In this document: positions 537 to 62,990 of the stretch, in pieces
Layout: every line of letters begins with the position of its first letter
Position numbering within the stretch: position 1 is the stretch's first letter
From: an uncultured Dokdonia sp.
GTDB taxonomy: Bacteria > Bacteroidota > Bacteroidia > Flavobacteriales > Flavobacteriaceae
Reading direction: 5' to 3'
DNA length: 64,000 bases
Assembly (NCBI RefSeq): GCF_947492535.1
Contig: NZ_CANLNH010000001.1
Location: 310,001-374,000 of the forward strand
Program-made: the position numbers and the translations under genes
Notes under the pieces: model-generated
Told to the model about the DNA's origin: nothing
Database searches by the model: none
What the model saw: the letters and a program-made list of their open reading frames with translations, nothing else

Positions 537-1235
537 ATGTCAGAAAAACAAACTTCGTTCTCGATCAAGAATTGGTCGGAGGATGATAGACCGCGTGAAA
601 AATTAGTAAATAAAGGTAGATTAGCACTCTCAGATGCAGAACTTATAGCCATTCTTATAGGCTCTGGAAATCGAGAAGAAAGTGCTGTAGGATTGAGTAA
701 ACGTATTCTCGCTTCGTCTTCAAATAATCTCTCAGAACTCGGCAAAAAATCGATTAAAGATCTCAAAAAATTTAAGGGAATTGGTGAGGCCAAAGCAGTC
801 ACTATTGCTGCAGCGCTAGAATTAGGAAGACGGCGAAATGATAGTAGTACGCTTTCGCGAAAGCGTATAACCTCATCTTCTTCCGTTTTTGAAGTATTGC
901 AACCTATTATTGGAGATTTATCTCATGAAGAGTTTTGGGTCGTATATCTCAATAACTCCAACCGAATTTTAGAAAAACAACAATTAAGCAAAGGCGGGAT
1001 TACAGGTACGCTAGTTGATGTGCGATTGGTACTTAAAATGGCATTAGAGTTAAATGCTGTCGGAATTATTTTAGCACACAATCACCCTTCAGGAACACTG
1101 AAGCCTAGTAAATCAGATATTCAGCTTACTCAAAAATTAAAGGTAGCTTCAGCGAGTCTAGATGTAAAAGTATTAGATCATATCATTGTAACCGAAAAGG
1201 CGTATTTTAGCTTTGCCGATGATGGCTTGCTCTAA
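537..1235 (+). CDS. radC: RadC family JAMM-domain protein
   Basis: This 232-residue protein has the usual RadC build: an N-terminal helix-hairpin-helix part (SDAELIAILIGSG, then KFKGIGEAKAVTIAAALELGRR) and a C-terminal MPN/JAMM domain. The metal motif H-x-H-x7-S-x2-D is complete in AHNHPSGTLKPSKSD, with H181 and H183. The name comes from a historical link to DNA repair, but the true role is unsettled, and the intact motif suggests a metal-dependent hydrolase. A full copy of the window's palindromic repeat lies inside the gene and encodes TLSRKR in the linker between the two domains. The next gene starts 12 bp downstream, suggesting cotranscription. Confidence 0.92.
   Translation: MSEKQTSFSIKNWSEDDRPREKLVNKGRLALSDAELIAILIGSGNREESAVGLSKRILASSSNNLSELGKKSIKDLKKFKGIGEAKAVTIAAALELGRRRNDSSTLSRKRITSSSSVFEVLQPIIGDLSHEEFWVVYLNNSNRILEKQQLSKGGITGTLVDVRLVLKMALELNAVGIILAHNHPSGTLKPSKSDIQLTQKLKVASASLDVKVLDHIIVTEKAYFSFADDGLL
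848..867. repeat. Palindrome TACGCTTTCGCGAAAGCGTA (copy 1)
   Basis: This is a perfect 20-bp palindrome inside radC, where it reads as codons for TLSRKR. It belongs to the dispersed GCTTTCGCGAAAGC family of this window. Confidence 0.95.
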
Positions 1236-1247
1236 TTTCTTTTTTAA

Positions 1248-2534
1248 ATGTTGCTCGTATATACCCATAAAATCACACCTAGAGTTACCTATATATTCAA
1301 ACATGTATGTACTAGAGTAATGGGGATTAAGGTGTCTTTTACTTCTAAAGTTGAAGACTTTATAGCGCATGATGGGCCTAAGTTATCATATACACAAAAG
1401 CAACTTGGGAACGAATTACATATTAGCGCTGTAGATCTTCTTTTTGAACAAGGAGTGATGGATGTAGACATCCAGTTACAAGATTGGGATGGAGTTCCTT
1501 GTTTTTTTGCATCTAAAAGTTCAGAAGCATTAGTACCCTATGATATCTTTGGAGCTGCTTTTTATATGTTGAGTAGATATGAAGAATATTTACCACATGT
1601 TAAAGATGCATTAGGGCGTTTTCCAGCAAGTGAAAGTATAGCGTATAAACATCATTTTTTAGATCGCCCCGTTGTAGATGAATGGATTAGTCGATTCAAA
1701 GAAGCTATAAGATCTTCTTTTCCTTCAGACAAAATAAAAGAATTGCAATTTGAAACCCAGGTTGTTGTAGATGTACCACAAGCGTATGCTTTTAGGAAAA
1801 TAGGATTTTTAAGAACAGTAGGAGGATATGGGCGTGATTTTATAAACTTTCGTTTAAAGCAAAATTTCATACGTACACAAGTATTATTAGGGTTACGGAA
1901 AGATCCTTTTGATATATTTAGTTGGTTAGTAAATGTACAAAAGCAATCATCATCACGATTTAAAGTATTCTTTGAGTTAGGCGATTATACAGAAGATAGT
2001 AAGAATATAAAATACAGTAAGCGTAGTTTTCAATCATTAATAAAAATGGTAGGAGATTATTCATGTGTGGGATTACTAGTCTCTAAAAAAGGGGCAAAAT
2101 CTATAACCGAATTAAAAGAAGAAAAGAGGCGTATAGAGTATATTACCAACAGACCTTTAAAACAAACTAGAATTACAGATTACAAAATAACACTACCTAC
2201 GAGTTATCGAAATCTTTTAGATCAAGAAATTCTAGAAGATTACACCATGGGATATCCAGATACACCTGGATTTAGAGCAAGTACAAGTACACCGTTTCTA
2301 TTTTATGATTTGGATTATGAAATACAAACTCCTTTAATGATATATCCATTTTGTATTCATGTAAATGCTATTATAGATGAAAATAAACATACTGTAGATA
2401 GTGTGAGTTTGACGAAGATTAAAAATGCTGTAAAGAATGTAAAAGGAGTATTTTTAATAGCTTTTTCAAATTCAGATTTTACAAATATATATAGTAAGAA
2501 AGTATTCAGAACATTATTAACAACAGATGAATAA
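1248..2534 (+). CDS. Polysaccharide deacetylase-like protein, possibly inactive
   Basis: This 428-residue protein starts MLLVYTHKITPRVTYIFKHV and carries QVLLGLRKDPFDIFSWL, FFELGDYTEDSKN and DYTMGYPDTPGFRAS. These match, from memory, a flavobacterial family annotated as polysaccharide deacetylase with an N-terminal DUF7033 region. No signal peptide is evident. The usual acidic pair of motif 1 (DxD) reads VVDVPQAYAF here. I see no H-P-S-like metal motif at GLLVSKKGAK, nor the S-R-Q motif near TRITDYKITLP. The protein may therefore have lost activity or use other residues. The C-terminus also seems short. It overlaps the following HAD gene by 8 bp, so translational coupling is likely. Confidence 0.6.
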   Translation: MLLVYTHKITPRVTYIFKHVCTRVMGIKVSFTSKVEDFIAHDGPKLSYTQKQLGNELHISAVDLLFEQGVMDVDIQLQDWDGVPCFFASKSSEALVPYDIFGAAFYMLSRYEEYLPHVKDALGRFPASESIAYKHHFLDRPVVDEWISRFKEAIRSSFPSDKIKELQFETQVVVDVPQAYAFRKIGFLRTVGGYGRDFINFRLKQNFIRTQVLLGLRKDPFDIFSWLVNVQKQSSSRFKVFFELGDYTEDSKNIKYSKRSFQSLIKMVGDYSCVGLLVSKKGAKSITELKEEKRRIEYITNRPLKQTRITDYKITLPTSYRNLLDQEILEDYTMGYPDTPGFRASTSTPFLFYDLDYEIQTPLMIYPFCIHVNAIIDENKHTVDSVSLTKIKNAVKNVKGVFLIAFSNSDFTNIYSKKVFRTLLTTDE

Positions 2535-5240: not shown

Positions 5241-6059
5241 ATGAAACACCTAGTAATTGCACTACTTTTACTGATACACTTTTCTTCTTTTTCTCAAAAC
5301 ATAAATGACTATCAATATGTCATAGTTCCAGAGAAATATGAATTTGCTAAAAGTATAGATGAATATCAATTAAATTCACTTACCCAGTTCCTATTTAATA
5401 AATATGGATTTGATTCCTATAGAGTAAGAGATGAAAAGCCCTTAGGACTTAAAAATGGAAGCTGTAATGCTTTGTATGTAGACGTAGAGAGTGACTCTAA
5501 CTTCATTATTGCTAGATTAAAAGTAATTTTAAAAGACTGTAATGGGAAGGTTGTCTTTATCACCGAACAAGGAAAAAGTAAAGAAAAAGATTTTAAAAGA
5601 GCCTACCATGAAGCTTTGCGTAAAGCGTTTGTTTCTATAGAAGAATTAAAATATGCTTATAATGGGAAGACTCATGAAGACACCACTACAGAGACGGTAG
5701 AAGCACCTGAGGTGACTGAGGTGAAAAAAGAGGTGGAAACACCTAAAGTAGAAACCACGACTACCCCTGTAGAAGTAGTAGAAAAGGAAACAGAAACGCA
5801 AGTTGTTGAAAATACAGCTAGTCTTGATGGGACTTATCAAAGTGCAGATGGTATTTATAAATTAGTTATTTCACAAGAAAATATAACCATTTATGAAGGC
5901 TCAAAAAAGATTGGTTCGGCGATAACAAATGACAATAAAAGTTACGAGGTATTAACGACTCAATTTAATGGTAAAGGTCGTTTTGAGAACAATACTTTTA
6001 TTGTAGATCGTGTTGTAAAAGGAATCGGTGTCGTACAAATGCTATTTTCTAAAAACTAA
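5241..6059 (+). CDS. Secreted protein with Thr/Glu/Val-rich linker
   Basis: The 272-residue protein has a signal peptide (MKHLVIALLLLIHFSSFSQ). An N-terminal domain of about 120 residues begins NINDYQYVIVPEKYEFAKS. A charged low-complexity linker (about 145-190) is built from repeated T/E/V/K/P residues, and a small C-terminal beta-rich domain starts at SLDGTYQSADGIYKLVI. N-terminal domains of this type occur widely in flavobacteria without known function. Its stop codon shares one base with the start of the FG-GAP gene, so the two are translationally coupled. Confidence 0.7.
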   Translation: MKHLVIALLLLIHFSSFSQNINDYQYVIVPEKYEFAKSIDEYQLNSLTQFLFNKYGFDSYRVRDEKPLGLKNGSCNALYVDVESDSNFIIARLKVILKDCNGKVVFITEQGKSKEKDFKRAYHEALRKAFVSIEELKYAYNGKTHEDTTTETVEAPEVTEVKKEVETPKVETTTTPVEVVEKETETQVVENTASLDGTYQSADGIYKLVISQENITIYEGSKKIGSAITNDNKSYEVLTTQFNGKGRFENNTFIVDRVVKGIGVVQMLFSKN

Positions 6060-9000
6060 TGAAATATTTTTTTACCATAAGTTTAGCGCTTCTTTTTTTA
6101 GGCTGTGGTCAAGAACAAAAGACCACCACCACAACGACCAAATCAGAAGAAAAAGTAGATAAAACTCAAAATCTTTTTGAACTCGTTCCTGGAGCAGAAA
6201 GTGGGATTACATTTTCAAATACACTGAAAGAAGATGTAGGGACTATAGAAAACCTATTTGACTTTGATTACTTCTATAACGGAGCTGGTGTAGGTGTGGC
6301 AGATATTAATAACGATGGTTTGCAGGATCTCTTTTTTGCTGGAAATCAAGTAGAGAATAAATTATACCTCAATAAAGGAAATCTGCAATTCGAAGATATT
6401 TCTGAGCAAGCTGGTATCAATACCGGTAAGCAATGGGCAAACGGAGTCACGTTTGCCGATGTTAATAATGACGGATGGATAGATATATACGTTTCCCAAG
6501 GAGGACCTAAGCAAGCAGAAGACCGTAAAAACCTCCTATACATAAATTTAAAAGATAACCGCTTTCGCGAAAGCGCACAAGACTATAATCTCGCAGATAC
6601 AGGAATTAGTACACAATCCGTGTTTTTCGATTACGATAATGACGGCGATCTTGACTGTGTGGTTTCCAATGAAAATGAATTCTATGGACTAGATCCCCAG
6701 CGTTTTTTTGCTACAATGAAATTAGGTAATAACCTAGAAAAAAGTAGCGTACAACTCTATGAAAATAAAGGAACATCCTATCGTAAAGTCACAAAGGAAG
6801 CAGGACTGCTCAAAGCAGCTTTTGGTTTAGGTATTACGGTTAGTGATATCAATAATGATGGGTGGTTAGATATCTATATTACAAATGATTACTATGTGCC
6901 AGATGCGATGTACATCAATAACAAAAATGGGACATTTTCAGACCGTATAAAAGAGTATACAAAACAAGTATCCTTCTTTGGGATGGGCGTAGATATTGCC
7001 GATATCAATAACGATAAGCTTCAAGATATTTTTGTGTTAGACATGGCAGCAAGTGATCATGTGCGCTCAAAAACATTAATGGCGAGCATGGATGTAGATC
7101 GGTTTTCGATGCTAGTTGATGATTTTGGTTTCCAACATCAATATATGTTTAATTCATTGCAATTAAATATGGGAGGAAATCATTTCAATAATGCAGTACA
7201 TCAAGCAAAGATGGCAAAAACCGACTGGAGTTGGGCAGGCCTTATTGCCGATCTAGATAATGATTCTCATCGTGATGTATATGTTACAAATGGATATAGA
7301 AGGTACGCTTTAGATAATGATATCCAGAATCAAGTACGGGATACTCAAAAAGCATTTGGTGGGAAAGTACCTCTGGATGTAAAGCAAAAGCTATATGATG
7401 CAATGCCTACAGAAAAGCTTAGTAATATCATGTTTCATAATGATGGAAATCTTCATTTTGAAAATAAAGGATATCAATGGGGACTCGCAGTAGCATCCTA
7501 TTCTAATGGAGGTGCTTATGCCGATTTAGATAACGATGGCGATTTAGAACTTGTGGTCAATAATATAGATGATGAAGCATTCCTGTTTAAAAATACAAGC
7601 GTAGAAAAAGAAACGGGAAATTATGCGCGTGTTTCTTTAAAAGGAAAGACATCAGAGACATTTGCCAAAGTGACTATTGCTTATGGAGATCAATCTCAAG
7701 TGTATGAATCTAAAAGAACTAAAGGATATCTTTCTGCAACAGAAAATAGTGCGCATTTTGGGTTAGGCGATGTCGCAGTAATAGATAAAGTAACGGTACA
7801 GTGGCTTTCGGGTAAAAGCGAAGAGCGTACTAATATAAAAGCAAATACAACACTTGTGTTTTCTGAAGAAGAAGCAACGATATCAACGGCGCCTATTTTT
7901 AAAGTTGATGATACTATTGAGTACGCTTTCGCGAAAGCGGAAACAACTTACGGACTCGATTTTATTCATAAAGAAAATACCTATGATGATTTTGCTAAAG
8001 AAGTCTTATTGCCGTATAAGCAATCCACTTTAGGTCCTCATATGACAAAAGGCGATGTCAATGGAGATGGCCTTGATGATATCTATGTAGGCGGTGCTTC
8101 TGGACAAGCAGGACAGCTATACATTCAAACAGCTAGTGGTTTTTCAAAATCTAAGCAACTAGCATTTACAGCTGACGCTATCCATGAAGATATGGAGTCT
8201 ATTCTTTTTGATGCCGATGGTGATCAGGATTTAGACCTTATTGTGGTAAGCGGTGGAAACGAATTTAATGCCAATGCTCTACAATACAAGAATCGATATT
8301 ATCAAAATGATGGTAAAGGTACATTTACACAAATCTCTTTTGATGAAGACACAACAACGGGATTCTTGTCTGGTAAATCAATCACCACTATTGATTATGA
8401 CTCTGACGGTGATTTTGATATTATTGTAGGAAATAGAATTGAGCCACAGCATTTCCCAACGAGTGCACCCTCTCAAGTGTATCAAAATAATGGTGGTTCT
8501 TTTACAAATGTAACGGCTCAAGTCGCTCCAGAATTAGCAAATTTTGGAATTGTAAATAAAGTGATCGCTACAGACTATGATTCGGATGGTGATGCTGATT
8601 TTATGGTAGTAGGAGAGTGGTCTCATATAGGTGTCTTTAAAAATAATGATGGCGTATTTACAGATGTTTCTAAGGAAATAGGATTGGATAAAGAAAAGGG
8701 GTGGTGGTTTACAATCACAGAAACAGATGTCAATAAAGATGGTTTTCCAGATTATATAGTTGGAAATATAGGTGATAATATAAAATATAAAGCAAGTGCA
8801 AAAACACCTTTTAAAGTCTTTGCTTCAGATTTTGATGATAATGGTACTTTTGACTTAGTATTGAGTAATAACTATAATGGTAATTACGTGCCGGCTAGAG
8901 GTAAAGAATGTTCTACACAACAAATGCCTTTTATCTCAGAAAAATTTGAAACCTATAATGCTTTTGCTAATGCAACATTGAAAGATATTTATGGAGAAAA

Positions 9001-9406
9001 ATTAGAAACCGCTTATCAAAAAGAAGTGACAACATTTTCTTCAAAATTATTACTCAATAAAGGAGATGGTTCTTTTGTGATTTCAGAGCTCCCATCAATA
9101 GCCCAAGCGGCACCTGTATTAAGTGTGATCTCTAGAGATATTAATAATGATGGTTTTGAAGATGCTATTGTGATAGGAAATATATACGAAACAGAAGTAG
9201 AGACTCCTCGATATGATGCGGGTAATGGTGTTGTGCTACTCTCTAATCAGAAAGATGGATATACTGCATTATCTGCTATAGCATCAGGATTATATGTAGA
9301 GGGTAATGCGAAAGCACTACTAGAAGTGTCTCATAAAGCATTAGATAAAGAAATAGTTGTTATAGGTGTAAATGATAGCCCTCTTAAAATATTGACGTTT
9401 AAATAG
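6059..9406 (+). CDS. FG-GAP/VCBS repeat lipoprotein with ASPIC/UnbV domain
   Basis: This very long protein (1115 residues) has a lipobox ending at Cys16 (LALLFLGC). It carries at least fourteen calcium-binding-type repeat motifs such as DINNDGLQD, DVNNDGWID, DYDNDGDLD, DVNGDGLDD, DYDSDGDFD and DINNDGFED. These are the signature of integrin-like beta-propeller FG-GAP repeats. Between the two repeat blocks lies an ASPIC/UnbV-type segment (about 525-600: KRTKGYLSATENSAHFGLG then VTVQWLSG). Such lipoproteins are common in Bacteroidota, often near SusC/SusD genes, and are thought to act in binding or adhesion at the surface. The gene contains two full palindrome copies, encoding RFRES and AFAKA. 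It ends 10 bp from the convergent rarA gene. Confidence 0.85.
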   Translation: MKYFFTISLALLFLGCGQEQKTTTTTTKSEEKVDKTQNLFELVPGAESGITFSNTLKEDVGTIENLFDFDYFYNGAGVGVADINNDGLQDLFFAGNQVENKLYLNKGNLQFEDISEQAGINTGKQWANGVTFADVNNDGWIDIYVSQGGPKQAEDRKNLLYINLKDNRFRESAQDYNLADTGISTQSVFFDYDNDGDLDCVVSNENEFYGLDPQRFFATMKLGNNLEKSSVQLYENKGTSYRKVTKEAGLLKAAFGLGITVSDINNDGWLDIYITNDYYVPDAMYINNKNGTFSDRIKEYTKQVSFFGMGVDIADINNDKLQDIFVLDMAASDHVRSKTLMASMDVDRFSMLVDDFGFQHQYMFNSLQLNMGGNHFNNAVHQAKMAKTDWSWAGLIADLDNDSHRDVYVTNGYRRYALDNDIQNQVRDTQKAFGGKVPLDVKQKLYDAMPTEKLSNIMFHNDGNLHFENKGYQWGLAVASYSNGGAYADLDNDGDLELVVNNIDDEAFLFKNTSVEKETGNYARVSLKGKTSETFAKVTIAYGDQSQVYESKRTKGYLSATENSAHFGLGDVAVIDKVTVQWLSGKSEERTNIKANTTLVFSEEEATISTAPIFKVDDTIEYAFAKAETTYGLDFIHKENTYDDFAKEVLLPYKQSTLGPHMTKGDVNGDGLDDIYVGGASGQAGQLYIQTASGFSKSKQLAFTADAIHEDMESILFDADGDQDLDLIVVSGGNEFNANALQYKNRYYQNDGKGTFTQISFDEDTTTGFLSGKSITTIDYDSDGDFDIIVGNRIEPQHFPTSAPSQVYQNNGGSFTNVTAQVAPELANFGIVNKVIATDYDSDGDADFMVVGEWSHIGVFKNNDGVFTDVSKEIGLDKEKGWWFTITETDVNKDGFPDYIVGNIGDNIKYKASAKTPFKVFASDFDDNGTFDLVLSNNYNGNYVPARGKECSTQQMPFISEKFETYNAFANATLKDIYGEKLETAYQKEVTTFSSKLLLNKGDGSFVISELPSIAQAAPVLSVISRDINNDGFEDAIVIGNIYETEVETPRYDAGNGVVLLSNQKDGYTALSAIASGLYVEGNAKALLEVSHKALDKEIVVIGVNDSPLKILTFK
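6560..6575. repeat. Palindrome CGCTTTCGCGAAAGCG (copy 2)
   Basis: A full 16-bp copy within the FG-GAP lipoprotein gene, read as R-F-R-E-S. The flanks are not self-complementary. Confidence 0.93.
7924..7939. repeat. Palindrome CGCTTTCGCGAAAGCG (copy 3)
   Basis: The second 16-bp copy in the same gene, in a different reading frame from copy 2: it encodes A-F-A-K-A, just after the ASPIC/UnbV segment. Confidence 0.93.
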
Positions 9407-10780: not shown

Positions 10781-11533
10781 ATGGAATCAAAACCTTCTTC
10801 TTTTCAGTTTTATAATGGGGTTGTATTATACCCTGTTGGTTTTGTTTTGCTTATTTGGGTAGTATATTGGTTAGAAATACGTTTTGGATTGAATTTTACA
10901 CCGTATGGCGTAAAGCCACAAACATTTTCTGGGTTAAGAGGTGTTTTGTTTTCTCCGTTTATACATGGAAGTTTATCACATTTATGGCATAATACAGTGC
11001 CACTATTTGTGCTAAGTACAGCATTGTTTTATTTCTATAATAGAATAGCTTGGCGTGTATTTTTTCTCATTATACTTTTAAGTGGTGTAGGTACTTGGTG
11101 TATTGGTCGTTCTGCCTATCATATTGGAATGAGTGGTGTTATTTATGGGCTGGTTTCCTTTTTATTTTTTAAAGGCATAAGAGCAAAGCATTTTAGACTT
11201 GTGGCACTTTCATTACTTGTGGTCTTTTTGTATGGTAGCTTGGTGTGGGGAACATTACCTATGGACGAGAAAGTTTCTTGGGAAGGACATTTGGCAGGAT
11301 TTATCTCTGGGGCTATATTAGGTTTTTGCTTTCGCGAAAGCGTAGCCAAGCCACCCAAATATGTTTGGGAAGCAGAAGATTATAATGAAGAGGATGATCC
11401 ATTCATGCGCCAATTTGATGAGAATGGAAACTTTATAGAGATAGAAGAGGAGGAAGAGGATATTGTAAATACTCCTACTGTAAATTATATATATAAAGAA
11501 AAGGATACTAATTCAGAATCTGAGATTGATTAA
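10781..11533 (+). CDS. Rhomboid family intramembrane serine protease
   Basis: The 250-residue polytopic membrane protein has about six hydrophobic segments. It shows rhomboid marks: HGSLSHLWHNTVPLF early, the catalytic serine in IGMSGVIYG (S118), and the catalytic histidine in WEGHLAGFISGA (H170). Rhomboids cleave transmembrane helices inside the membrane. The substrate here is unknown. The C-terminus is a long acidic cytoplasmic tail with runs of Glu/Asp after the last helix. A palindrome copy encodes CFRES at the end of that helix. The last four bases overlap the convergent methyltransferase gene, the two stop codons sharing TTAA. Confidence 0.9.
   Translation: MESKPSSFQFYNGVVLYPVGFVLLIWVVYWLEIRFGLNFTPYGVKPQTFSGLRGVLFSPFIHGSLSHLWHNTVPLFVLSTALFYFYNRIAWRVFFLIILLSGVGTWCIGRSAYHIGMSGVIYGLVSFLFFKGIRAKHFRLVALSLLVVFLYGSLVWGTLPMDEKVSWEGHLAGFISGAILGFCFRESVAKPPKYVWEAEDYNEEDDPFMRQFDENGNFIEIEEEEEDIVNTPTVNYIYKEKDTNSESEID
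11328..11342. repeat. Palindrome GCTTTCGCGAAAGCG (copy 4)
   Basis: A full core copy inside the rhomboid gene, read as C-F-R-E-S-V at the junction between the last membrane helix and the cytoplasmic tail. Confidence 0.92.
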
Positions 11534-25687: not shown

Positions 25688-27385
25688 TTAAAAACGTATC
25701 GCTAATTGAAAATGAAGCTTTGTGTTAGAAAATCTAAAAGTTTGATTTTCAGTTTTTCCATTAGCAATATTAATCTTAAAAATGCCAGCTTTGGTTCTAA
25801 GTCCAGCTCCAAAGCCAAAACTTATTAGTTTTTCTTTTTGATCAGAGATATCATTTTCAAAGTAGGCTAGGTCAATAATACTGTGTACATATATGCTAGA
25901 GTTTAACACATATCTATATTCTGTATTTAAAGTACTAACCAGATTTGCAAAAATGCTGTTTTCTTCAAATCCTCGTATGCTGGTGATTCCTCCAAAACGA
26001 TAAAGTTCATTGGTAAGGTATGTGTCTGAAAGAAGTACTTGTGTTTTGTTGTTTAGGTAGATTTGGTTGGTTTCGTTCAGCTTAAATATATGACTCGTTA
26101 GTGAGTTGAAGCTAATTTGTTCTTCTTTTTTTTCTGTAGAAGATCTGTTTCCGACTTCACCTTCTAATGTAAAGTGTGTTTTAACAGGATAGAAAAAGTC
26201 TGATTGTAGTTTTGAAAATGAAAAACTACCAAGAACTCTTTGTTGTGTGTAGTCTTCTATGATTTCGTTATCGGTGTTGGTAGACTCGATAAGATCTTCA
26301 GATTGTTTTGATTTGTAGCCTAAAGAAATGGTGCTGTTTGGGTTAACTTGGTAAAATAAACTCACCTCTTGGCTGTTTTCAGAAAATGTGCTGTCTTTTC
26401 TAAATAATGATAATTGTGTTTCAACTCCTAGTGGACTTCTAAATAAATAAGGCAATGAGGCCTTTACATTTAGTTGTGTTTGGTCATCGCCATCACTCTT
26501 ATAATTTAATAGTAATGTTTCTCCGTAGTTAAGGTTGTTTGTTAAGATAAGGTCTATATACCCGTCTAGTTGCAATCTGTTAGTCTCTTCATTCGTAGCA
26601 AAACCTAGAAAGCCATCAAATCGGTTGTTCACTTTACGCTCTAGGTAAAAGTAAATGGTAGTGCTGTCTTTTGTAAATAAAACTTGAGGATCTTTTTTTG
26701 AAGTGATAAAACTAAGATTGTTTAATCGTTCATTTTGTTCAAGTAATTCTTTTTGGTTGAAAACTTTTCCTTCTCTTATTCTTGCGTAATATTTTATATA
26801 ACCTCTTGGGGCTTTTTTGTATCCATTAATAATAATGCGATTTGCATAGCGATTTACGTCTTGATTTATAGAAAGTTTTCCTGAAAGTGTGTTTATGTTG
26901 TCTTTGGATATTGATGTGATTTGAAAACTAGTAAAAGGATTTCCGCTATTTGCAGCTATAGAGGTTAAATTTTCTAAAACCGCTTTCGCGAAAGCGGTCT
27001 CAATAAGAATACTGTCGTTCTTAATAGAGAGGTTGGCTTCCTTAAGGTATGTTTTAGTAGATGTGTCTTTTCCTACGTAGATTCTCACATATTTATATCG
27101 CTTACCTAAATGCATTGCTGATGCATACAAGGAGTCGTTAATTTTAACTCTTTCTTCAGTGATGTCTATGTAGCCTATTTTTGAAAGAGAGCTTTTTAAG
27201 CTATCTATTGTTTTAAATAAAGGAATAAGTTCCTTGAATGTTTTTTGATATCCTATGCTGTCAATTATTTCTGTCTCAGCAAGCGTTTTACCTTTAATAC
27301 TAAGCAGTAGTTTTCCTTCTTGAGATTGGCAATAGGAAATACTGAAAATATATAGAGTAAAAAAGATGTAGATAATGCGTCTCAA
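25688..27385 (-). CDS. Omp85-superfamily (POTRA plus barrel) outer membrane protein
   Basis: The 565-residue protein has a signal peptide (MRRIIYIFFTLYIFSISYCQ). An N-terminal periplasmic part includes a POTRA-like stretch (IINGYKKAPRGYIKYY, then REGKVFNQKELLEQNERLNN). A beta barrel follows with the Omp85 loop-6 motif FGGITSIRGFEENS and a final strand ending in Phe (LHFQLAIRF). BamA, TamA and two-partner secretion transporters share this build; this one is short and seems to have one clear POTRA. Assembly or export of outer membrane proteins is the likely role, with partner unknown. A palindrome copy encodes TAFAKAV in the periplasmic part. The gene is divergent from rpsL. Confidence 0.78.
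   Translation of the reverse strand: MRRIIYIFFTLYIFSISYCQSQEGKLLLSIKGKTLAETEIIDSIGYQKTFKELIPLFKTIDSLKSSLSKIGYIDITEERVKINDSLYASAMHLGKRYKYVRIYVGKDTSTKTYLKEANLSIKNDSILIETAFAKAVLENLTSIAANSGNPFTSFQITSISKDNINTLSGKLSINQDVNRYANRIIINGYKKAPRGYIKYYARIREGKVFNQKELLEQNERLNNLSFITSKKDPQVLFTKDSTTIYFYLERKVNNRFDGFLGFATNEETNRLQLDGYIDLILTNNLNYGETLLLNYKSDGDDQTQLNVKASLPYLFRSPLGVETQLSLFRKDSTFSENSQEVSLFYQVNPNSTISLGYKSKQSEDLIESTNTDNEIIEDYTQQRVLGSFSFSKLQSDFFYPVKTHFTLEGEVGNRSSTEKKEEQISFNSLTSHIFKLNETNQIYLNNKTQVLLSDTYLTNELYRFGGITSIRGFEENSIFANLVSTLNTEYRYVLNSSIYVHSIIDLAYFENDISDQKEKLISFGFGAGLRTKAGIFKINIANGKTENQTFRFSNTKLHFQLAIRF
26979..26998. repeat. Palindrome ACCGCTTTCGCGAAAGCGGT (copy 5)
   Basis: A perfect 20-bp palindrome inside the Omp85-type gene. 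The outer bases AC/GT differ from the TA/TA of copies 1 and 10 but remain self-complementary. Confidence 0.95.
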
Positions 27386-30899: not shown

Positions 30900-30927
30900 T
30901 GAGTACGCTTTCGCGAAAGCGTACTCA
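30900..30927. repeat. 28-bp perfect palindrome (copy 6)
   Basis: The core CGCTTTCGCGAAAGCG is extended on both sides by TGAGTA / TACTCA, giving the longest perfect copy in the window, 6 bp after rpsJ. No T-run follows, so it is not a simple terminator. Confidence 0.96.
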
Positions 30928-37269: not shown

Positions 37270-37290
37270 TAAATTATTAATAAATAGAAG

Positions 37291-37304
37291 GTTTCGCGAA
37301 AGCG
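37291..37304. repeat. Decayed palindrome copy between rpsN and rpsH
   Basis: GTTTCGCGAAAGCG keeps most of the palindrome. As RNA it can instead fold as TTTCGC / GCGAAA closed by a GAAA tetraloop, with GG/CC pairs outside a small bulge. Confidence 0.6.
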
Positions 37305-39846: not shown

Positions 39847-39859
39847 TCGATATAAGAGG

Positions 39860-41212
39860 ATGAAATTTATAGATACAATAAAAAATATTTGGAAGATTGA
39901 CGAGCTTAAGAATCGCATTCTGCTTACGTTAACTCTTCTCCTCGTTTATCGTTTTGGTGCCCAGGTAGTATTGCCTGGAATTGATGCTTCACAGTTAGGT
40001 GGTTTTGCTGCTAATTTTGATGGAGGTTTAGGAGGTTTACTTAATGCATTTACTGGAGGTGCTTTTTCTAATGCATCTGTATTTGCACTTGGTATTATGC
40101 CATATATCTCAGCATCGATTGTTGTGCAATTAATGGGAATTGCTATTCCTTATTTGCAGAAACTACAAAAAGAAGGAGAGAGCGGTCGTCGTAAGATTAA
40201 TCAAATAACAAGATGGCTTACCATAGGAATTTGTTTATTACAAGCTCCTGGTTATCTTGCTGCTCTTGGAACATTAGGAGTTCCTGAATCTGCTTTTGTT
40301 TTAGGTAAGACACCTGTATTCTATATTTCATCAGTAATGATACTTGTAACTGGATGTATATTTGCAATGTGGTTAGGAGAAAAAATTACAGATAAAGGTA
40401 TAGGTAATGGTATATCACTATTAATTATGGTTGGTATTATCGCAACAATGCCTATTTCATTTGTTCAAGAATGGGTAGCACGTGTTACTGAGTCTAATGG
40501 TGGAATTATTATGATTCTAATAGAATTAGTAATATGGTTTGTAATTATATTATTATCTGTTCTTCTTGTGATGGCTGTAAGGCAAATTCCAGTCTCCTAT
40601 GCAAGAAGAACTGCTAGTGGAGCTTATGAAAAAAATGTTTTTGGAAGTCGTCAGTATATTCCTTTAAAACTTAATGCTTCAGGAGTAATGCCAATTATAT
40701 TTGCTCAGGCAATTATGTTTGTTCCAGGTTTAATAGGAGGAGCAAGTTTTCTAGAAAACACAAGTACAGGACAATGGTTACAACAAGAATTTGGAGGAAA
40801 TATATTTGGATTTTGGTATAATTTAGTATTTGGATTATTGATTATCATATTTACATATTTTTATACTGCAATTACAGTTCCTACAAATAAAATGGCTGAT
40901 GATCTAAAACGTAGTGGTGGGTTTATTGCTGGAATTCGTCCAGGAAGTGAAACTGCAGAATACTTAGATAAAATCATGTCACAAATTACATTGCCAGGAT
41001 CTATATTTTTGGCACTTATAGCAATATTCCCAGCTATAGCATTTAATGTTATAGGAATACAGCAAGGGTGGGCTCTATTCTATGGAGGTACTTCTTTGTT
41101 GATTATGGTAGGTGTAGCTATAGACACGATGCAACAAGTAAATTCATACCTGCTTAATAGACATTATGATGGTCTTATGAAATCAGGTAAAAACCGTAAA
41201 GCAGTAGCATAA
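39860..41212 (+). CDS. secY: Preprotein translocase subunit SecY
   Basis: The 450-residue membrane protein has ten hydrophobic segments and forms the SecYEG channel in the inner membrane. It shows [17 protein letters not shown] (helix 2), cytoplasmic loop residues [20 protein letters not shown], and [21 protein letters not shown]. Its stop overlaps the infA start by one base. The map gene often found between secY and infA in other phyla is absent. Confidence 0.98.
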
Positions 41213-41427
41213 TGGCAAAACAAGCAGCTATAGAACAAGACGGGTCAATTATAGAAGCATTGTCTAATGCAATGTTTAGAGTTGAATTAGAAAATGGCCA
41301 CGTAGTGACTGCGCACATATCAGGTAAGATGCGTATGCACTATATTAAATTATTACCTGGAGATAAAGTAAAATTAGAAATGAGTCCTTATGATTTATCA
41401 AAGGCTCGTATAACATACCGTTACTAA
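41212..41427 (+). CDS. infA: Translation initiation factor IF-1
   Basis: The 71-residue OB-fold protein starts [20 protein letters not shown] and has [20 protein letters not shown] and [20 protein letters not shown]. It occupies the 30S A site during initiation. Coupled to secY by a one-base overlap. Confidence 0.98.
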
Positions 41428-41445
41428 CGGGAAAACAAGCTTGAT

Positions 41446-41562
41446 ATGAAAGTAAGAGCGTCTATTAAAAAAAGAAGTGCCGATTGCAAGATTGTACGTC
41501 GCAAGGGCAGATTATACGTAATTAATAAAAAGAACCCTAGGTTTAAACAAAGACAAGGTTAA
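41446..41562 (+). CDS. rpmJ: 50S ribosomal protein L36
   Basis: A 38-residue frame reads [20 protein letters not shown] and ends with [12 protein letters not shown]. Only one of the four zinc ligands (Cys14) of the zinc-binding L36 type is present, so this is a zinc-free form. It sits between infA and rpsM as usual. Confidence 0.97.
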
Positions 41563-41567
41563 GAATT

Positions 41568-41942
41568 ATGGCTAGAATTGCAGGGATAGATATCCCAAAA
41601 CATAAGAGAGGTGTAATTGCACTAACATACATCTTTGGAATTGGTAGAAGTAGAGCTCAAGAAATTTTAGCTACTGCTAATGTATCAGAAGATAAAAAGG
41701 TATCTGATTGGGATGATGACGAGATTGGTCGAATTCGTGATGCAGTAGGTAGCTATACTATCGAAGGAGAATTACGTAGCGAAGTTTCATTAAACATCAA
41801 GCGTTTAATGGATATCGGATGTTACAGAGGTATTCGTCATCGTACAGGACTTCCTTTAAGAGGTCAGCGTACTAAGAATAACTCTCGTACAAGAAAAGGT
41901 AAGCGTAAAACTGTTGCAAACAAGAAAAAAGCAACTAAATAA
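41568..41942 (+). CDS. rpsM: 30S ribosomal protein S13
   Basis: The 124-residue S13 starts [20 protein letters not shown] and has [20 protein letters not shown] before a Lys-rich tail that reaches the P-site tRNA. First gene of the alpha-operon part. Confidence 0.98.
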
Positions 41943-41954
41943 TAACTTGTAGTA

Positions 41955-42338
41955 ATGGCAAAGCAAAGTACAAAAAAACGTAAAGTTGTTGTAGAGTCTG
42001 TAGGTGAAGCACACATCTCAGCTTCTTTTAATAATTTGATTATTTCATTAACAAATAAAAAAGGAGATGTGATATCTTGGTCATCTGCTGGTAAAATGGG
42101 TTTTAGAGGTTCTAAGAAGAATACTCCATATGCGGCTCAAACGGCGGCAGAAGACTGCGCAAAAGTTGCTCACGAAGCAGGTTTACGTAAAGTAAAAGTA
42201 TATGTGAAAGGACCAGGTAATGGACGTGAGTCTGCTATCAGATCTATTCATAATAGTGGTATTGAAGTTACAGAAATTATAGATGTAACTCCAGCACCAC
42301 ATAATGGGTGTCGTCCTCCTAAAAGACGTCGCGTTTAA
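41955..42338 (+). CDS. rpsK: 30S ribosomal protein S11
   Basis: The 127-residue S11 has [34 protein letters not shown] and the ending [13 protein letters not shown]-like (here [14 protein letters not shown]). It forms the 30S platform with S18 and S6. An 81-bp spacer with a structured leader follows. Confidence 0.98.
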
Positions 42339-42355
42339 TTTTAATTTAATATCTA

Positions 42356-42403
42356 GAGGGATATATGGTTTGCGAAGGATTGACCTTAATTCCTAACCCC
42401 CTC
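42356..42403 (+). promoter_or_regulatory. Structured leader before rpsD
   Basis: Three stacked helices can form: GAGGG (42356-42360) with CCCTC (42399-42403), GGTT (42367-42370) with AACC (42395-42398), and AGGA (42376-42379) with TCCT (42391-42394). All bulges are on the 5' side (ATATAT, TGCGA). It ends 16 bp before the rpsD start, where an S4 autoregulatory site would be expected. Confidence 0.55.
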
Positions 42404-42419
42404 AAAAAACAAATTTTTA

Positions 42420-43025
42420 ATGGCAAGATATACTGGTCCTAAGACTAAAATTGCTCGTAAGTTTAGTGAAGCAATTTATGGAGAAGATAAATCTTTTGAA
42501 AAAAGAAATTATCCTCCTGGACAGCACGGAAACAACAGAAGAAGAGGAAAGAAATCTGAGTACGCTGTTCAATTACAAGAAAAACAAAAAGCTAAGTATA
42601 CGTATGGTATATTAGAGCGCCAATTTAGAAACCTATATGCAAAAGCAAATAGATCTAACGGAATCACAGGTGAAGTTTTACTTCAACTTTGTGAGCAACG
42701 TTTAGATAATGTTGTTTTTAGAATGGGGGTTTCTCCATCTAGAAATGGAGCTCGTCAATTAGTTTCTCACCGTCACATTACAGTAAATGGTAGTATCGTA
42801 AATATACCATCTTACCAAGTAAAGCCTGGTGATGTTATCGCTGTTCGCGAAAAATCAAAATCATTAGAAGTTATCACAAACTCATTGTCTAATGCAAGTC
42901 ATGTGTATGAGTGGATATCATGGAATAATGATAAAAAAGAAGGTACTTTTGTAGCTGTTCCTCAGCGTCTTCAAATACCTGAAAATATCAATGAACAATT
43001 CATCGTCGAATTGTACTCTAAGTAA
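42420..43025 (+). CDS. rpsD: 30S ribosomal protein S4
   Basis: The 201-residue S4 starts [20 protein letters not shown] and has the S4 RNA-binding domain [20 protein letters not shown]. It has no zinc-binding cysteine cluster at the N-terminus. S4 starts 30S assembly and in several bacteria represses its own mRNA. The leader just upstream is a candidate target. Confidence 0.98.
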
Positions 43026-43051
43026 AATTAACTAAAGCTAGAAAACACGAT

Positions 43052-44044
43052 ATGGCAATATTAAATTTCCAAAAGCCTGATAAAGTCATTATGATTGACT
43101 CTACTGATTTTGAAGGTAAGTTTGAGTTTAGACCTCTAGAACCTGGTTATGGTTTAACCGTAGGAAACGCTTTAAGACGTGTATTACTTTCTTCTTTAGA
43201 AGGTTTTGCAATCACTTCTGTACGTATAGAAGGCGTAGATCATGAGTTTTCTACAATCGCTGGAGTAGTTGAAGATGTTACTGAGATTATTCTTAATTTA
43301 AAACAAGTACGTTTTAAAAGACAAATTGAAGAAATAGATAATGAGACTGTTACTATTTCTCTTTCTGGAATTGATCAGCTTACTGCTGGAGATTTTCAGA
43401 AGTTTATTTCAGGTTTTCAGGTACTTAATCCAGACCTTGTTATTGCAAATATGGATAAGAAAGTCTCTATCAATATGGAAATTACCATAGAGAAAGGTAG
43501 AGGATATGTTCCGGCAGAAGAAAACAAAAAATCAAATGCACCTTTAGGTACAATATTTACAGATTCTATTTATACACCAATTAGAAATGTAAAGTATAGT
43601 ATAGAAAATTACCGTGTAGAACAAAAAACAGATTATGAGAAATTAATCTTTGAAATTATTACAGACGGTTCTATTCATCCAAAAGAAGCACTTACTGAAG
43701 CTGCAAAAACACTTATACATCATTTCATGTTATTCTCTGATGAGCGTATCACTCTTGAAGCAGATGAGATTGCTCAAACAGAAACATATGATGAAGAGTC
43801 GCTTCACATGAGACAGTTATTAAAGACTAAACTTATAGATATGGACCTTTCGGTACGTGCTCTAAACTGTCTTAAAGCTGCAGAAGTTGATACATTAGGT
43901 GATCTTGTTTCTTTCAATAAAAATGACCTTATGAAGTTTAGAAACTTTGGGAAAAAGTCATTGACAGAACTTGAAGAACTTGTTAATGTAAAGGGACTTA
44001 ATTTTGGTATGGATTTATCAAAATATAAATTAGATAAAGATTAA
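43052..44044 (+). CDS. rpoA: RNA polymerase alpha subunit
   Basis: The 330-residue alpha subunit has the N-terminal dimerisation domain ([40 protein letters not shown]) and a C-terminal DNA- and activator-binding domain ([36 protein letters not shown]). Length is normal. It is followed after 45 bp by rplQ, the gap containing a palindrome copy. Confidence 0.98.
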
Positions 44045-44056
44045 TTACGATTTGTA

Positions 44057-44072
44057 CGCTTTCGCGAAAGCG
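44057..44072. repeat. Palindrome CGCTTTCGCGAAAGCG (copy 7)
   Basis: A full copy in the 45-bp gap between rpoA and rplQ, inside an operon of essential genes, so it cannot be a strong terminator here. Immediate flanks are not complementary. Confidence 0.94.
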
Positions 44073-48671: not shown

Positions 48672-48697
48672 GAGTATGCTTTCGCGAAAGCGTATTT
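48672..48697. repeat. Palindrome copy 8 with wobble-extended arms
   Basis: The core GCTTTCGCGAAAGC (48678-48691) is flanked by GAGTAT and GTATTT. As plus-strand RNA these pair completely if G-U pairs are allowed, giving an 11-pair stem around CGCG. Confidence 0.9.
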
Positions 48698-50290: not shown

Positions 50291-50302
50291 GCTTTCGCGA
50301 AA
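50291..50302. repeat. Decayed palindrome copy
   Basis: GCTTTCGCGAAA keeps one full arm; the other arm ends AAAT. It lies between the gltA terminator and the amidinotransferase gene. Confidence 0.6.
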
Positions 50303-50428
50303 AATTACTTTAAGAGACTTCCTAGTTATTTTAGAATTAGATATAACCAACGATCACTCATTTAAATTATCTATAGGTGTTTGCTCTTATTTTTTGTGTT
50401 CAAACATGGAGATTAGTATCTTAGTCCT

Positions 50429-52145: not shown

Positions 52146-53306
52146 TTATACTACTTGAACTTTAGCAGCTAATTCTTTTGCTCTTTCAGTAACTTTTATG
52201 ATATCACCATCTTTTGAATCATACGTAACGACAACACCCATACGTCTATAAGGTCTGGAAGTTGGTTTGCCAAATAATCTGAAATCAGACTTTTTTGCAT
52301 TGGCTATTGTTTCAATACCTTTAAAACTTGGATTGTCAGAATGGTCACTAGCAAGAATAACAGCGCTAGCACCGATACGTTCTTGTGTAATTTCAGCGAT
52401 AGGAAGTCCTAAAACAGCACGGAGGTGTAATTCAAATTCATTGAAGTTTTGCGTATTTCCTAAAGTAACCATTCCTGTATCGTGAGGTCTTGGCGAAAGC
52501 TCAGAAAAATAAACCCCATCATCTGCTATGAAAAATTCAACTCCCCAAATACCAGCACCTCCTAAAGCATCTGTTACTTTTTCTGCCATTTCTTGTGCTG
52601 TCTGTAGGTGTTCAGATAACATGATAGCTGGTTGCCAACTTTCTTGATAATCTCCTCTCTCTTGCCTATGTCCTATAGGTGGACAGAATAGTGTTGTACC
52701 TTCTCTTTGCGTAACTGTAAGTAATGTAATTTCATAATTAAAATTTACAAACCCTTCTACGATAACTTCAGCAACATCTCCACGAGATCCTTCTTGGGAG
52801 TAATCCCAAGCTTTTTGGATGTCATTTTCAGTTTTGATAGTAGATTGCCCTTTCCCACTTGAAGACATAAGTGGTTTTACTACGCAAGGCATTCCTATTT
52901 CTTTAACAGCTTCAGATAACTCTTTCGCGGAAGCGGCGTATTTATACTTAGCCGTTTTTAGTCCTAGTTCTTTAGCAGCAAGATCGCGTATAGATTTACG
53001 ATTCATGGTGTAATTTGCAGCTTTTGCACTAGGGATTACGGTATATCCTTGTTTTTCATATTCGTAAAAACGTTCTGTGCGTATAGCTTCAATTTCTGGT
53101 ACAATATAATCAGGTTGGTATTTTTCAACAAGGCTATCTAGAGCATCTCCATTTAGCATGTTAATTACTTCTGCCGTATGAGCGACTTGCATGGCAGGTG
53201 CATTTTCGTAACTATCTACTGCGATAACGGTTTGCCCCAAGCGTTGTGCTGCAATTACAAATTCTTTACCAAGTTCTCCAGAACCTAAAAGGAGGATTTT
53301 AGCCAT
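52146..53306 (-). CDS. purT: Formate-dependent GAR transformylase (PurT)
   Basis: The 386-residue ATP-grasp enzyme formylates glycinamide ribonucleotide with formate and ATP in purine synthesis. It starts [20 protein letters not shown] and has the ATP-grasp core [20 protein letters not shown], the metal region [28 protein letters not shown], and the C-terminal [18 protein letters not shown]. Length and motifs are typical. A decayed palindrome copy encodes part of [10 protein letters not shown]. Confidence 0.96.
52922..52935. repeat. Decayed palindrome copy in purT
   Basis: CTTTCGCGGAAGCG differs from the family at the centre and one arm, and is read as ASAKE on the minus strand. Confidence 0.45.
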
Positions 53307-55124: not shown

Positions 55125-55140
55125 CGCTTTCGCGAAAGCG
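55125..55140. repeat. Palindrome CGCTTTCGCGAAAGCG (copy 9)
   Basis: A full copy in the 37-bp gap between the convergent DUF4397 and DUF885 genes, where a shared terminator would be expected. No other hairpin is seen there. Confidence 0.94.
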
Positions 55141-57075: not shown

Positions 57076-57095
57076 TACGCTTTCGCGAAAGCGTA
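57076..57095. repeat. Palindrome TACGCTTTCGCGAAAGCGTA (copy 10)
   Basis: A perfect 20-bp palindrome 9 bp after the aminotransferase stop, just before its T-run terminator. It is identical to copy 1 in radC. Confidence 0.95.
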
Positions 57096-57104: not shown

Positions 57105-58289
57105 TTAAGCAACAGCTTCCTTAATACGTTTAATAGCTTCTTTTATTTGGTCTGAACTTGCAGCATAGGAAATTCTAATAGAATTTGGATTACCAAATGC
57201 TTCTCCTGTTACGGTTGCAACATTTGCATGTTCTAATAGATACATCGCAAAATCGGATGCATTTTGGATAGTAACCCCATTGAATGTTTTTCCAAAAAAT
57301 GCAGTAACATCTGGGAAGACATAAAAAGCACCATCTGGTTCATTGCATGTAAAACCATCAATATCATTAAGAAGGTCTAGAATAAGTGAACGCCTATTCT
57401 TAAACTCATCAATCATGTATTGTACTTTACTTGGATCTGCTTCTAATGCGGTAATCACAGCGCGTTGAGCGATGCAATTGGCACCACTTGTAATTTGACC
57501 TTGCATTTTATTACAAGCTCTAGCTATTTTTGCAGGAGCTCCAATATATCCAATACGCCATCCCGTCATGGCAAAAGCTTTGGATACGCCATTTACAGTA
57601 ACTGTACGGTCATACATATCTGGAAATTGAGCCATGCTTGCATGTCCACCTACGTAGTTGATATGCTCATATATTTCATCGCTTACCACCGTTATTTGTG
57701 GATACTTTACAAGTACATCAGCAAGGGCGCGTAATTCTTCTTTACTATATACAGATCCAGAAGGGTTACAAGGAGAGCTATACCACAACATCTTTGTTTT
57801 TGGAGTGATTGCAGCTTCCAGTTGTTCTGGAGTCATTTTAAAATCAGTTTCAATAGATGTTTTAACTTCTACAGGAACACCTTCTGCTATCTTTACAATG
57901 TCACTATAACTTACCCAGTATGGACATGGTAAAATGACCTCATCGCCAGGATTTAATACAACAAGAGCAACATTTGCTAAAGACTGTTTTGCGCCTGTAG
58001 ATACTACTATTTGAGTTGGGTCATAGGTAAGGTGATTATCACGTTTAAACTTTGTGATAATGGCACTTTTAAGTTCTCCGTATCCGTCAACAGGGGTGTA
58101 TGAATTATAATTGTCATTAATTGCCTGTATCGCAGCGTCTTTGATAAAATCAGGAGTGTTAAAGTCAGGTTCTCCAAGACTTAATCCTATAATGTCTTTT
58201 CCTTCGCTGCGAAGTTCTCTTGCTTTGGCAGCCATGGCAAGCGTGGCAGATGTTGCCATGCTGATAACGCGATTAGAAAGTATGCTCAT
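57105..58289 (-). CDS. PLP-dependent aminotransferase (aspartate aminotransferase type)
   Basis: The 394-residue class I aminotransferase has IIGLSLGEPDFNTPDFIKDA, the PLP-contacting VVSTGAKQSLANVA, SPCNPSGSVYSKEELRAL, SDEIYEHINY and the Schiff-base lysine in VNGVSKAFAMTGWRIGYIGA, with RISYAAS near the C-terminus for the substrate carboxylate. This is the AspC/aminotransferase Ib group, which interconverts aspartate and oxaloacetate or related amino acids. Exact specificity is not decided by sequence. It lies 44 bp after the desaturase gene on the same strand, so the two may be cotranscribed. Confidence 0.92.
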   Translation of the reverse strand: MSILSNRVISMATSATLAMAAKARELRSEGKDIIGLSLGEPDFNTPDFIKDAAIQAINDNYNSYTPVDGYGELKSAIITKFKRDNHLTYDPTQIVVSTGAKQSLANVALVVLNPGDEVILPCPYWVSYSDIVKIAEGVPVEVKTSIETDFKMTPEQLEAAITPKTKMLWYSSPCNPSGSVYSKEELRALADVLVKYPQITVVSDEIYEHINYVGGHASMAQFPDMYDRTVTVNGVSKAFAMTGWRIGYIGAPAKIARACNKMQGQITSGANCIAQRAVITALEADPSKVQYMIDEFKNRRSLILDLLNDIDGFTCNEPDGAFYVFPDVTAFFGKTFNGVTIQNASDFAMYLLEHANVATVTGEAFGNPNSIRISYAASSDQIKEAIKRIKEAVA

Positions 58290-61870: not shown

Positions 61871-62914
61871 ATGAAAAAAATAATAGTATTCGTCTTAGTG
61901 ACGACCATGGGATTCTTTGCCCAAAATGTACAAGCTCAGAAAGTAAAAATGGAAACTTCTGAGGAGAAAATAGAAGTCTTAAAAGCGAGAAAAGACGAAG
62001 TTGTTGAACTTGAGAAAAAAGCGCTGAAACGTGAAGTGAGAGCTATCATGAATCGTCTGGATAAAGGGGAGATAACTGAGGAAAAAGCAGAAGAGCTTAA
62101 AAAAGAAGTTGCAGAAAAACGCGCTTTAAATATAGAAAACCGAATGGCAGTTATCGATAATCAAATTGCTTTATTAGAACGCAATGGAGTTTGGAGTAGT
62201 AATGTTGTTTGGGATGGTGAAGTTTTAAAAGATATTGTTAATAGAAGAAAAAATAGAAAACCAGAGCATTATAGACGTACACGTTCTGATTTTGTTTTTG
62301 CTTTTGGATTAAATAATACACTTGCAGACGGAAGATCTTTAGATGATTCTCCATATAGAATTGGAGGGAGTCGTTTTGCAGAATTAGGATGGGCTTGGAC
62401 TACTCGTGTTTTTGAAAATAGTGGTTGGCTACGCGTTAAATATGGATTTTCATTCCAATTTAATGGGCTGAAACCTGAAGATGATCAATTTTTTGTAAGA
62501 GACGGAGATATGGTTGCATTGCAAGAATTTGATAGAAGCCTAGATAAGAGTAAATTAAGATTTGATAACCTAGTATTTCCAGTTCATTTTGAATTTGGTC
62601 CTTCAAGACGAAAAGAAAAAGGTGATGATGTAAGTTTTTCAACGCATAATAAATTTAAAATTGGAGTTGGAGGGTATGCTGGTTTCAATATTGGAACAGT
62701 ACAAAAATTAAAATTTGATAATGATGAAGGTGATAAAGTGAAGCAGAAAAGCCGTGGAGGTTTGAATACAAATAACCTTGTATATGGTTTGAGTGGTTAT
62801 TTAGGATATGATAATATAGGAATATATGTAAAATATGATCTTAATCCGGTCTTTAAAGACAATCTAGTAGATGAGCGAAATATATCATTAGGTCTTCGAT
62901 TTGATTTGGATTAA
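61871..62914 (+). CDS. Outer membrane beta-barrel protein with N-terminal coiled coil
   Basis: The 347-residue protein has a signal peptide (MKKIIVFVLVTTMGFFAQ, cut near VQAQ). A charged helical region of about 90 residues (KIEVLKARKDEVVELEKKAL and onwards) probably forms a coiled coil. A beta-barrel domain then runs from DFVFAFGLNNTLADG to the end (NISLGLRFDLD). It follows the sigma and anti-sigma-like genes after 75 bp and could be their target or sensor in an envelope stress circuit. I know no named family. A palindrome-type terminator follows. Confidence 0.7.
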   Translation: MKKIIVFVLVTTMGFFAQNVQAQKVKMETSEEKIEVLKARKDEVVELEKKALKREVRAIMNRLDKGEITEEKAEELKKEVAEKRALNIENRMAVIDNQIALLERNGVWSSNVVWDGEVLKDIVNRRKNRKPEHYRRTRSDFVFAFGLNNTLADGRSLDDSPYRIGGSRFAELGWAWTTRVFENSGWLRVKYGFSFQFNGLKPEDDQFFVRDGDMVALQEFDRSLDKSKLRFDNLVFPVHFEFGPSRRKEKGDDVSFSTHNKFKIGVGGYAGFNIGTVQKLKFDNDEGDKVKQKSRGGLNTNNLVYGLSGYLGYDNIGIYVKYDLNPVFKDNLVDERNISLGLRFDLD

Positions 62915-62962
62915 GCAATAAGAAGCTACTTTGTTTCGATAAATTCCGTTTTTGTGAAGGTG

Positions 62963-62990
62963 TTCCGCTTTCGCGAAAGCGGAATTTTTT
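62963..62990 (+). terminator. Palindrome copy 11 acting as a terminator
   Basis: TTCCGCTTTCGC and GCGAAAGCGGAA form a 22-bp palindrome directly followed by TTTTTT, a typical rho-independent terminator, 48 bp after the beta-barrel gene. This copy shows that the repeat can serve as a terminator stem. Confidence 0.85.

Follow-up and report, generated by a model that had tools for sequence, protein, structure and literature searches.

A 14-bp palindrome repeated across the chromosomes of Dokdonia and a few other Flavobacteriaceae, a candidate self-DNA exchange signal

We have analysed a 64-kb stretch of DNA from an uncultured Dokdonia sp. (the window, positions 310001-374000 of contig 1 in a 4.86-Mb genome), which contains 11 exact copies of a perfect 14-bp palindrome, GCTTTCGCGAAAGC. 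The motif is a chromosome-wide recognition signal. Our best guess at its job, to which we give a probability of about 0.42, is that it may act as a self-DNA signal for uptake or exchange, resembling the DNA uptake sequence (DUS) of Neisseria except that it is palindromic, while a site for an architectural dimer is nearly as likely. These two leading explanations, an uptake-type signal and a chromosome-organisation or repair site, were both among the candidates of the initial annotation of the window, whose interpretation as a whole was partly supported. Only a few known words are iterated through genomes with comparable strength, namely DUS, the uptake signal sequence (USS), the highly iterated palindrome HIP1, Chi and the FtsK-orienting polar sequences (KOPS). 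Whether the motif proves to be a pilus-free uptake signal or an architectural site used chromosome-wide, the result would be new.

The abundance of the motif lies far beyond chance. Dinucleotide-preserving shuffles of the window gave a mean of 0.12 matches at up to two mismatches, against a real count of 14. The 11 full copies annotated initially all exist as exact 14-mers, with start positions that had been off by 0-7 bases. Genome-wide counting yielded 827 copies in the window's genome (G000), a figure not near expectation, and none of the same letters read backwards; the density of about one per 6 kb noted at the outset is right for this genome, the relative G016 carrying one per 3.5 kb. 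The motif is not confined to the window, since all 17 congeners searched held 369-905 copies each, and those at least 99% complete held 570-905 despite genome sizes from 2.9 to 5.5 Mb. A survey of 397 genomes of Flavobacteriaceae detected at least one copy in 80, with hundreds in only six (827 and 857 in genus g1, that of the window; 578, 664 and 609 in g11; 408 in g210) and 1-19 copies in each of the other 74, the motif being thus abundant in three of the 237 genera sampled. At the level of the phylum, 22 of 395 sampled genomes had a match, and the eight of them outside the family had one copy each and none more. A Nonlabens genome contained 478 copies and that of Dokdonia MAG-87 (L008) 685. 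The citrate synthase of the window's genome shares 90% identity with its Dokdonia MAG-87 counterpart, and a tree built on citrate synthase grouped Dokdonia MAG-87 with the window's genome and two of its congeners, on which grounds we assign their genus to Dokdonia; the tree also grouped Nonlabens with g11, so that g11 is probably Nonlabens. This single-gene tree placed Dokdonia, g210 and a further genus, g164, apart from Nonlabens, and one clade was not rejected (approximately unbiased test, p-AU 0.124). Among 80 named citrate synthase loci, where the motif itself was present in L008 and L011, no other perfect palindrome (10, 12 or 14 bp, at least four G/C) had as many as three copies, except GTTGCGCAAC in L053. 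A search for the 14-mer found no mention of it in the literature collection covered; one for TTTCGCGAAA returned nothing visibly related to the motif, judging from titles and abstract starts, and those pairing Dokdonia, Nonlabens or Flavobacteria with palindromes or repeats returned nothing visibly on it by title. Looking for palindromic uptake sequences in Bacteroidetes led, as far as the titles show, to work on Neisseria.

The core is nearly all-or-none, as deduced from the counts of exact and mismatched words. In 860 kb of G016 there were 236 exact copies and 19, 40 and 39 words with one, two and three mismatches, respectively, an exact to one-off ratio of ~12:1; the corresponding figures were 65, 10, 17 and 31 in 464 kb of G000 plus its syntenic relative G011, and 71, 8, 30 and 36 in 440 kb of G230. 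With the arms folded, the 19 one-offs of G016 included six at position 1, five at position 5 (T>C) and three at position 2. The core sits in a symmetric context of ~50 bp, with preferences in G016 for C at -1 (87%), A at -2 (61%), T at -3 (79%) and T or G at -4 (90%), and beyond these, 5' of the core, the strand is rich in keto bases and poor in C as far as about -18, with the mirror image on the opposite side; the same context is weaker in G230. Over 235 G016 sites, the left and right flanks paired as composition predicts at nearly all 45 flank positions, the exceptions being -5, which matched less often (z -3.5), and -29, which matched slightly more (z 2.1). Since selection on a hairpin would link the two halves and these vary independently, we infer that the motif is probably a double-stranded DNA site read by a two-fold symmetric protein. 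The hairpin unit once proposed for the palindrome is thus not supported, and the 3' flank of the core is A/C-rich and shows no T-run.

Individual sites were strongly conserved in position. When 244 kb of G000 were aligned with 220 kb of G011 (identity 0.86 coding, 0.85 intergenic), 25 of the 36 G000 sites lay in aligned DNA and 22 of these were intact in G011, the remaining three comprising one with a single mismatch, one with two synonymous changes in AFAKA and one split by a 45-bp insert. In the reverse direction, 22 of 25 aligned G011 sites were intact in G000. Control 14-mers were identical between both genomes in 19.5% of coding and 27.8% of intergenic cases, and the 5-26 bp beside intergenic cores were 0.82 identical, slightly under the intergenic mean. 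Between G230 and G016, which represent two genera at 71% identity, five of seven sites were intact, vs 1.2% of control 14-mers; other distant pairs kept two of six overall (G000-G016 1/2, G000-G230 0/1, Nonlabens/g11 against G016 1/1 and against G230 plus G000 0/2). To our knowledge, no other iterated word is as sharp, both in its excess of exact over one-off copies and in its retention at such a distance. The intact cross-genus sites include some in the gap before rpoC, in a gap by a tRNA-like sequence and within genes resembling rimO, a photolyase relative and ffh, all of them names that we presume from the sequences, and therefore at least some sites predate the genera.

Copies had been described as occurring both in genes and in gaps, which holds inasmuch as both occur, about a third to a half of the copies lying inside genes, but gaps are 7-12 times denser in G016. 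With gene calls based on a simple hexamer score, the 236 sites of G016 were distributed among genes (109), codirectional (81), convergent (21) and divergent (22) gaps, with three unplaced at stretch ends (four G230 sites were left out of the placement counts, the coding fraction of the gene calls being 0.355); this corresponds to 0.144 sites per kb in genes vs 1.02-1.79 per kb in gaps. Sites within genes used all three frames, with 61 of 109 in the AFAKA frame. They leaned towards the 5' end, the first fifth of the gene holding 37 of 108. Signal peptides are cleaved after an A-x-A rule, and some sites stood, by eye, at apparent signal-peptide ends, AFAKA giving the A-x-A cleavage site. Overall, placement looks to be wherever the sequence can be tolerated. 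Spacing, in turn, is much more even than chance would give in each of the four genomes tested, with coefficients of variation of the intervals of 0.62 in G016, 0.53 in Nonlabens G437, 0.72 in G230 and 0.66 in G000 against null values of 0.98-0.99, the positions in three of the four being those of the first stretch among the matches listed. Only two of 207 intervals were shorter than 1 kb, vs 37 expected, and for G000 a null retaining the gap bias agrees (p 0.0017). In G016, 43 segments of 20 kb contained 1-9 sites each (variance/mean 0.63) and site density rose with GC (rho 0.45). Mapping relative to ori and ter, as placed by GC skew in this genome, yielded no significant gradient (5.87 and 5.05 sites per 20 kb in the ori and ter halves, p 0.18).

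We prefer a self-DNA signal, maintained by biased recombination, because the exactness, the per-site conservation, the even spacing, the permissive placement and a probable decay in a sister genus best match neisserial DUS. A two-fold symmetric protein would read the site as double-stranded DNA and mark that DNA as self for homologous exchange, either by uptake or by recombination. Fragments carrying an intact site would be favoured in uptake or recombination, a single site being sufficient for each, and incoming intact copies would keep correcting damaged ones. Such a scheme would lead to exact sites, avoidance of close neighbours, permissive placement and decay once the system is lost. A study on Neisseria describes DUS as 97% identical in surroundings of ~85% identity, mostly intergenic and located in permissive parts of the core genome, with a spacing matched to conversion tracts (PMC2397512). 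Within the Flavobacteriaceae, Riemerella columbina prefers its own DNA, and the possible signals listed by the authors of that study comprised only AT-rich k-mers (PMC7965970).

Several observations weigh against a function as a self-DNA exchange signal, which we nevertheless infer. The DUS and USS systems known so far use machinery of the type IV pilus type, and the PilB/T2SSE ATPase (PF00437) scored above the Pfam cut-off in two of eight carriers and five of 23 other genomes. Likewise, none of the uptake signals known to us so far is a perfect palindrome; an uptake system of the standard kind is thus disfavoured both by the palindrome and by the missing pilus ATPase. The initial annotation envisaged a single protein co-occurring with the motif, and no reader was found among the three families tested, PilB-type ATPase, ParB and C5 methyltransferase, none of which tracks it. 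No account of competence came to our notice for Dokdonia or Nonlabens, although it was not searched for by name. Moreover, prophage-like contigs and metal-efflux islands carry copies, and the motif shows at most a weak depletion in foreign DNA (11 sites in the 86 kb unaligned to G011 vs 25 in 158 kb aligned). A more ambitious version, which we regard as less likely than not, would make this the first self-DNA signal that is palindromic and, in Bacteroidota, the first chromosome-wide one of its kind. A dimeric protein reading the ~50-bp symmetric site would drive pilus-independent DNA exchange, a system acquired a single time in marine Flavobacteriaceae and since lost, with relics left behind, in sister genera.

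A candidate for such loss is g164, which stands beside g210 on the single-gene tree. Its two genomes have 9 and 6 exact copies, and 86 and 74 words within two mismatches vs 20 and 10 for controls. Keto-rich flanks accompanied its one-offs at 0.56 (n=17) vs 0.49 at random, and of these 17 one-offs three aligned to carrier DNA and one fell at an exact carrier site, a place that is also constrained by AFAKA. The pattern might reflect decay after loss of the reader, for which it is supportive and not proof. The marine bacteria concerned include single-contig genomes and cultured members, and probable natural losers are available for comparison. Other low-count genomes whose places were listed often had their copies clustered, and two copies exactly 933 bp apart were found in G118, G127, G141, G254 and G200. 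The stretches L258-L264, from G118, G127, G254, G376 and G029, contain exact copies and look like metal-efflux clusters in non-carrier genera. Eight proteins scanned, from loci of four of these genomes and from G016, gave the families of an RND pump (ACR_tran), an outer membrane efflux protein, a heavy-metal P-type ATPase and a Fur-type regulator, the P-type ATPase of G016 being 82% identical to that of G376. Five versions of the efflux gene were compared: G118, G127 and G254 keep both sites exact, with the G118 gene 77-78% identical to those of the other two; G376 keeps one site, the other having two mismatches, and G029 keeps one and lacks the other. These islands could once have resided in carrier genera and then been exported. 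Records with 3 and 2 copies were also observed for the Mu-like prophage contigs L161 and L192 (IMG/VR), both with the transposase phrog_310 and, tested in L161, the DNA transposition protein phrog_296; prophages can therefore hold the motif. Among the matches listed from the viral scan, many look like chance or near-identical phages, and we give them little weight.

The strongest rival to an exchange signal is a chromosome-organising protein, be it a dimer resembling ParB, Noc or MatP or a nucleoid protein with sequence specificity, which would be needed every few kb, with selection keeping its sites exact. We consider this a serious, if tentative, alternative, as it would accommodate a perfect 14-bp palindrome of the size of parS and Noc sites, the symmetric context with independent halves, the even coverage of the chromosome with close neighbours avoided and the strong positional conservation. 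However, the motif has no significant ori/ter gradient in G016, unlike matS or Noc sites. It is also hard to see why hundreds of similar sites should each be under strong selection, and abundance in just three genera of the family speaks against this reading too. Concerning ParB as a reader, ParB_N gave one match in each of eight carriers and no extra copy, and an alignment of ParB revealed no column with disjoint residues between the eight carriers and 17 others, although a single ParB could conceivably read a second site without itself having changed. The parS word searched for occurred in none of 30 ParB loci of ~3.3 kb each, a result uninformative on parS itself.

In a HIP1-like signature of repair or methylation, an orphan methyltransferase together with biased mismatch repair would create and keep the palindrome. 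The likeness lies in a palindrome that is iterated genome-wide and extended symmetrically, which is also how HIP1 is described (PMC4390886). The available data make this explanation improbable: a C5 methyltransferase (PF00145, E<=1e-10) was present in four of ten carriers, being missing in six, and in 11 of 17 others, the N6/N4 classes not having been searched. Outside exact copies, the hexamer TCGCGA appeared 88 times vs 64 expected, only 1.4-fold, and thus gives no sign of a short methylation core, and 14 bp is long for a methyltransferase. A transcription element, either an intrinsic terminator or the operator of a regulator, is still less credible. It would suit the 42 of 81 codirectional-gap sites of G016 that lie 0-30 bp past a stop codon, but 109 of the 233 placed sites are inside genes, densities rise from divergent (1.02 per kb) through codirectional (1.24) to convergent gaps (1.79), and both the A/C-rich 3' flank and the stems without covariation argue against it. 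The tiny mobile palindrome suggested at first, here a repetitive extragenic palindromic (REP)-like element spread by a Y1 (RAYT) transposase, has the least to recommend it, for multicopy, palindromic, gap-biased sequences and a few places that differ through insertions within the motif or adjacent to it are outweighed by in-gene copies in all three frames, by two G000 sites absent in G011 (A 105945 and A 218601) that face same-length sequence with 1-2 substitutions, by the many positions shared between species and genera, and by the lack of stem covariation. We read the inserts as other elements hitting the motif. Short hairpin-like inserts of the CCTGCC...GGCAGG type, one of them degenerate, interrupt or abut the motif (GCT^TTCGCGAAAGC) at offsets 26343, 183830 and 232942 of the joined stretch 270001-514000 of G000 contig 1, the last two places being uninterrupted in G011. 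A small element may target the motif site.

Back in the window, the exact cores within genes or open frames are all intact in G011. They are found at 851..864 in radC (537..1235, + strand), where the core is read as LSRK; at 6561..6574 (FRES) and 7925..7938 (AFAKA) in an FG-GAP/UnbV_ASPIC gene (6059..9406, + strand); at 11328..11341 (FRES) in a rhomboid-family gene (10781..11533, + strand); and at 26982..26995 (AFAKA) in an open frame that matches no Pfam family at E<=1e-5 (25688..27385, - strand). Intact in G011 too are the cores in the gap after the EF-G gene (30907..30920), between the enolase and citrate synthase genes (48678..48691), in a short convergent gap (55126..55139) and in the gap right after the stop of an aminotransferase gene (57079..57092; gene 57105..58289, - strand), and the place of the core at 62967..62980, in the gap after 61871..62914, is unaligned to G011. 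The core at 44058..44071 separates two genes that we take, from their protein sequences, to be rpoA and rplQ; it is intact in G011 and G016 and occupies the same place in Dokdonia L008, with equal gap lengths, the aligned place in G230 being not intact. Ending just before it, 30921-44057 is the second longest motif-free part of the window (13.1 kb) and presumably spans ribosomal protein operons, to judge from its open frames. As regards the five decayed relatives reported previously, three can be retained, a one-mismatch word GGTTTCGCGAAAGC at 37290..37303, with an exact copy at the aligned G011 place (52826), and two-mismatch words at 50291..50304 and 52921..52934, the latter with one change, T5>C on one arm, that is the commonest one-off change in G016. 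The words at 13192 (three mismatches) and 46653 (four mismatches) need not be relatives, because such words are common, 31 and 130 having been counted in the 464 kb of G000 plus G011. A further near-match, GCTTTCGCGAAAAG (L447:4575; joined-stretch offsets 218069 in G000 and 203000 in G011), is conserved between Dokdonia and g164 and was found four times in the 440 kb of G230. As a separate observation, GGATCC is strongly avoided in the 860-kb G016 sample (23 vs 61 expected).

Compared with known systems, the motif shares with REP elements and bacterial interspersed mosaic elements (BIMEs) the character of a multicopy palindrome in gaps, and it differs from them in having no hairpin covariation, no mobility anatomy that we could see and a substantial part of its copies in genes. 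parS and Noc-binding sites are likewise 14-bp palindromes with TTTC/GAAA arms, whereas here the arms are two bp closer, the copies number hundreds rather than the tens of those sites, no significant ori/ter pattern exists and ParB is not distinct in carriers. HIP1 and the alternate HIPs of cyanobacteria are also genome-wide iterated palindromes of unsettled function in genes and gaps, with flank extensions that preserve the palindrome (PMC4390886). Unlike HIP1, however, the motif is 14 bp long instead of 6-10, unrelated in sequence, found in another phylum, strongly biased to gaps and not accompanied by a shared C5 methyltransferase. As to the DUS of Neisseriaceae and the USS of Pasteurellaceae, the present signal is set apart by being a perfect palindrome, a 14-bp core within its symmetric context, in another phylum and in carriers with no common type IV pilus ATPase. 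In addition, close neighbours are avoided here, whereas DUS often occur in close inverted pairs according to the study cited above (PMC2397512). The likeness to DUS and USS lies in the sequence pattern, and it comprises copies that are exact, number in the hundreds and are far better conserved than their flanks, a concentration in gaps and permissive places, kb-scale spacing and restriction to particular lineages.

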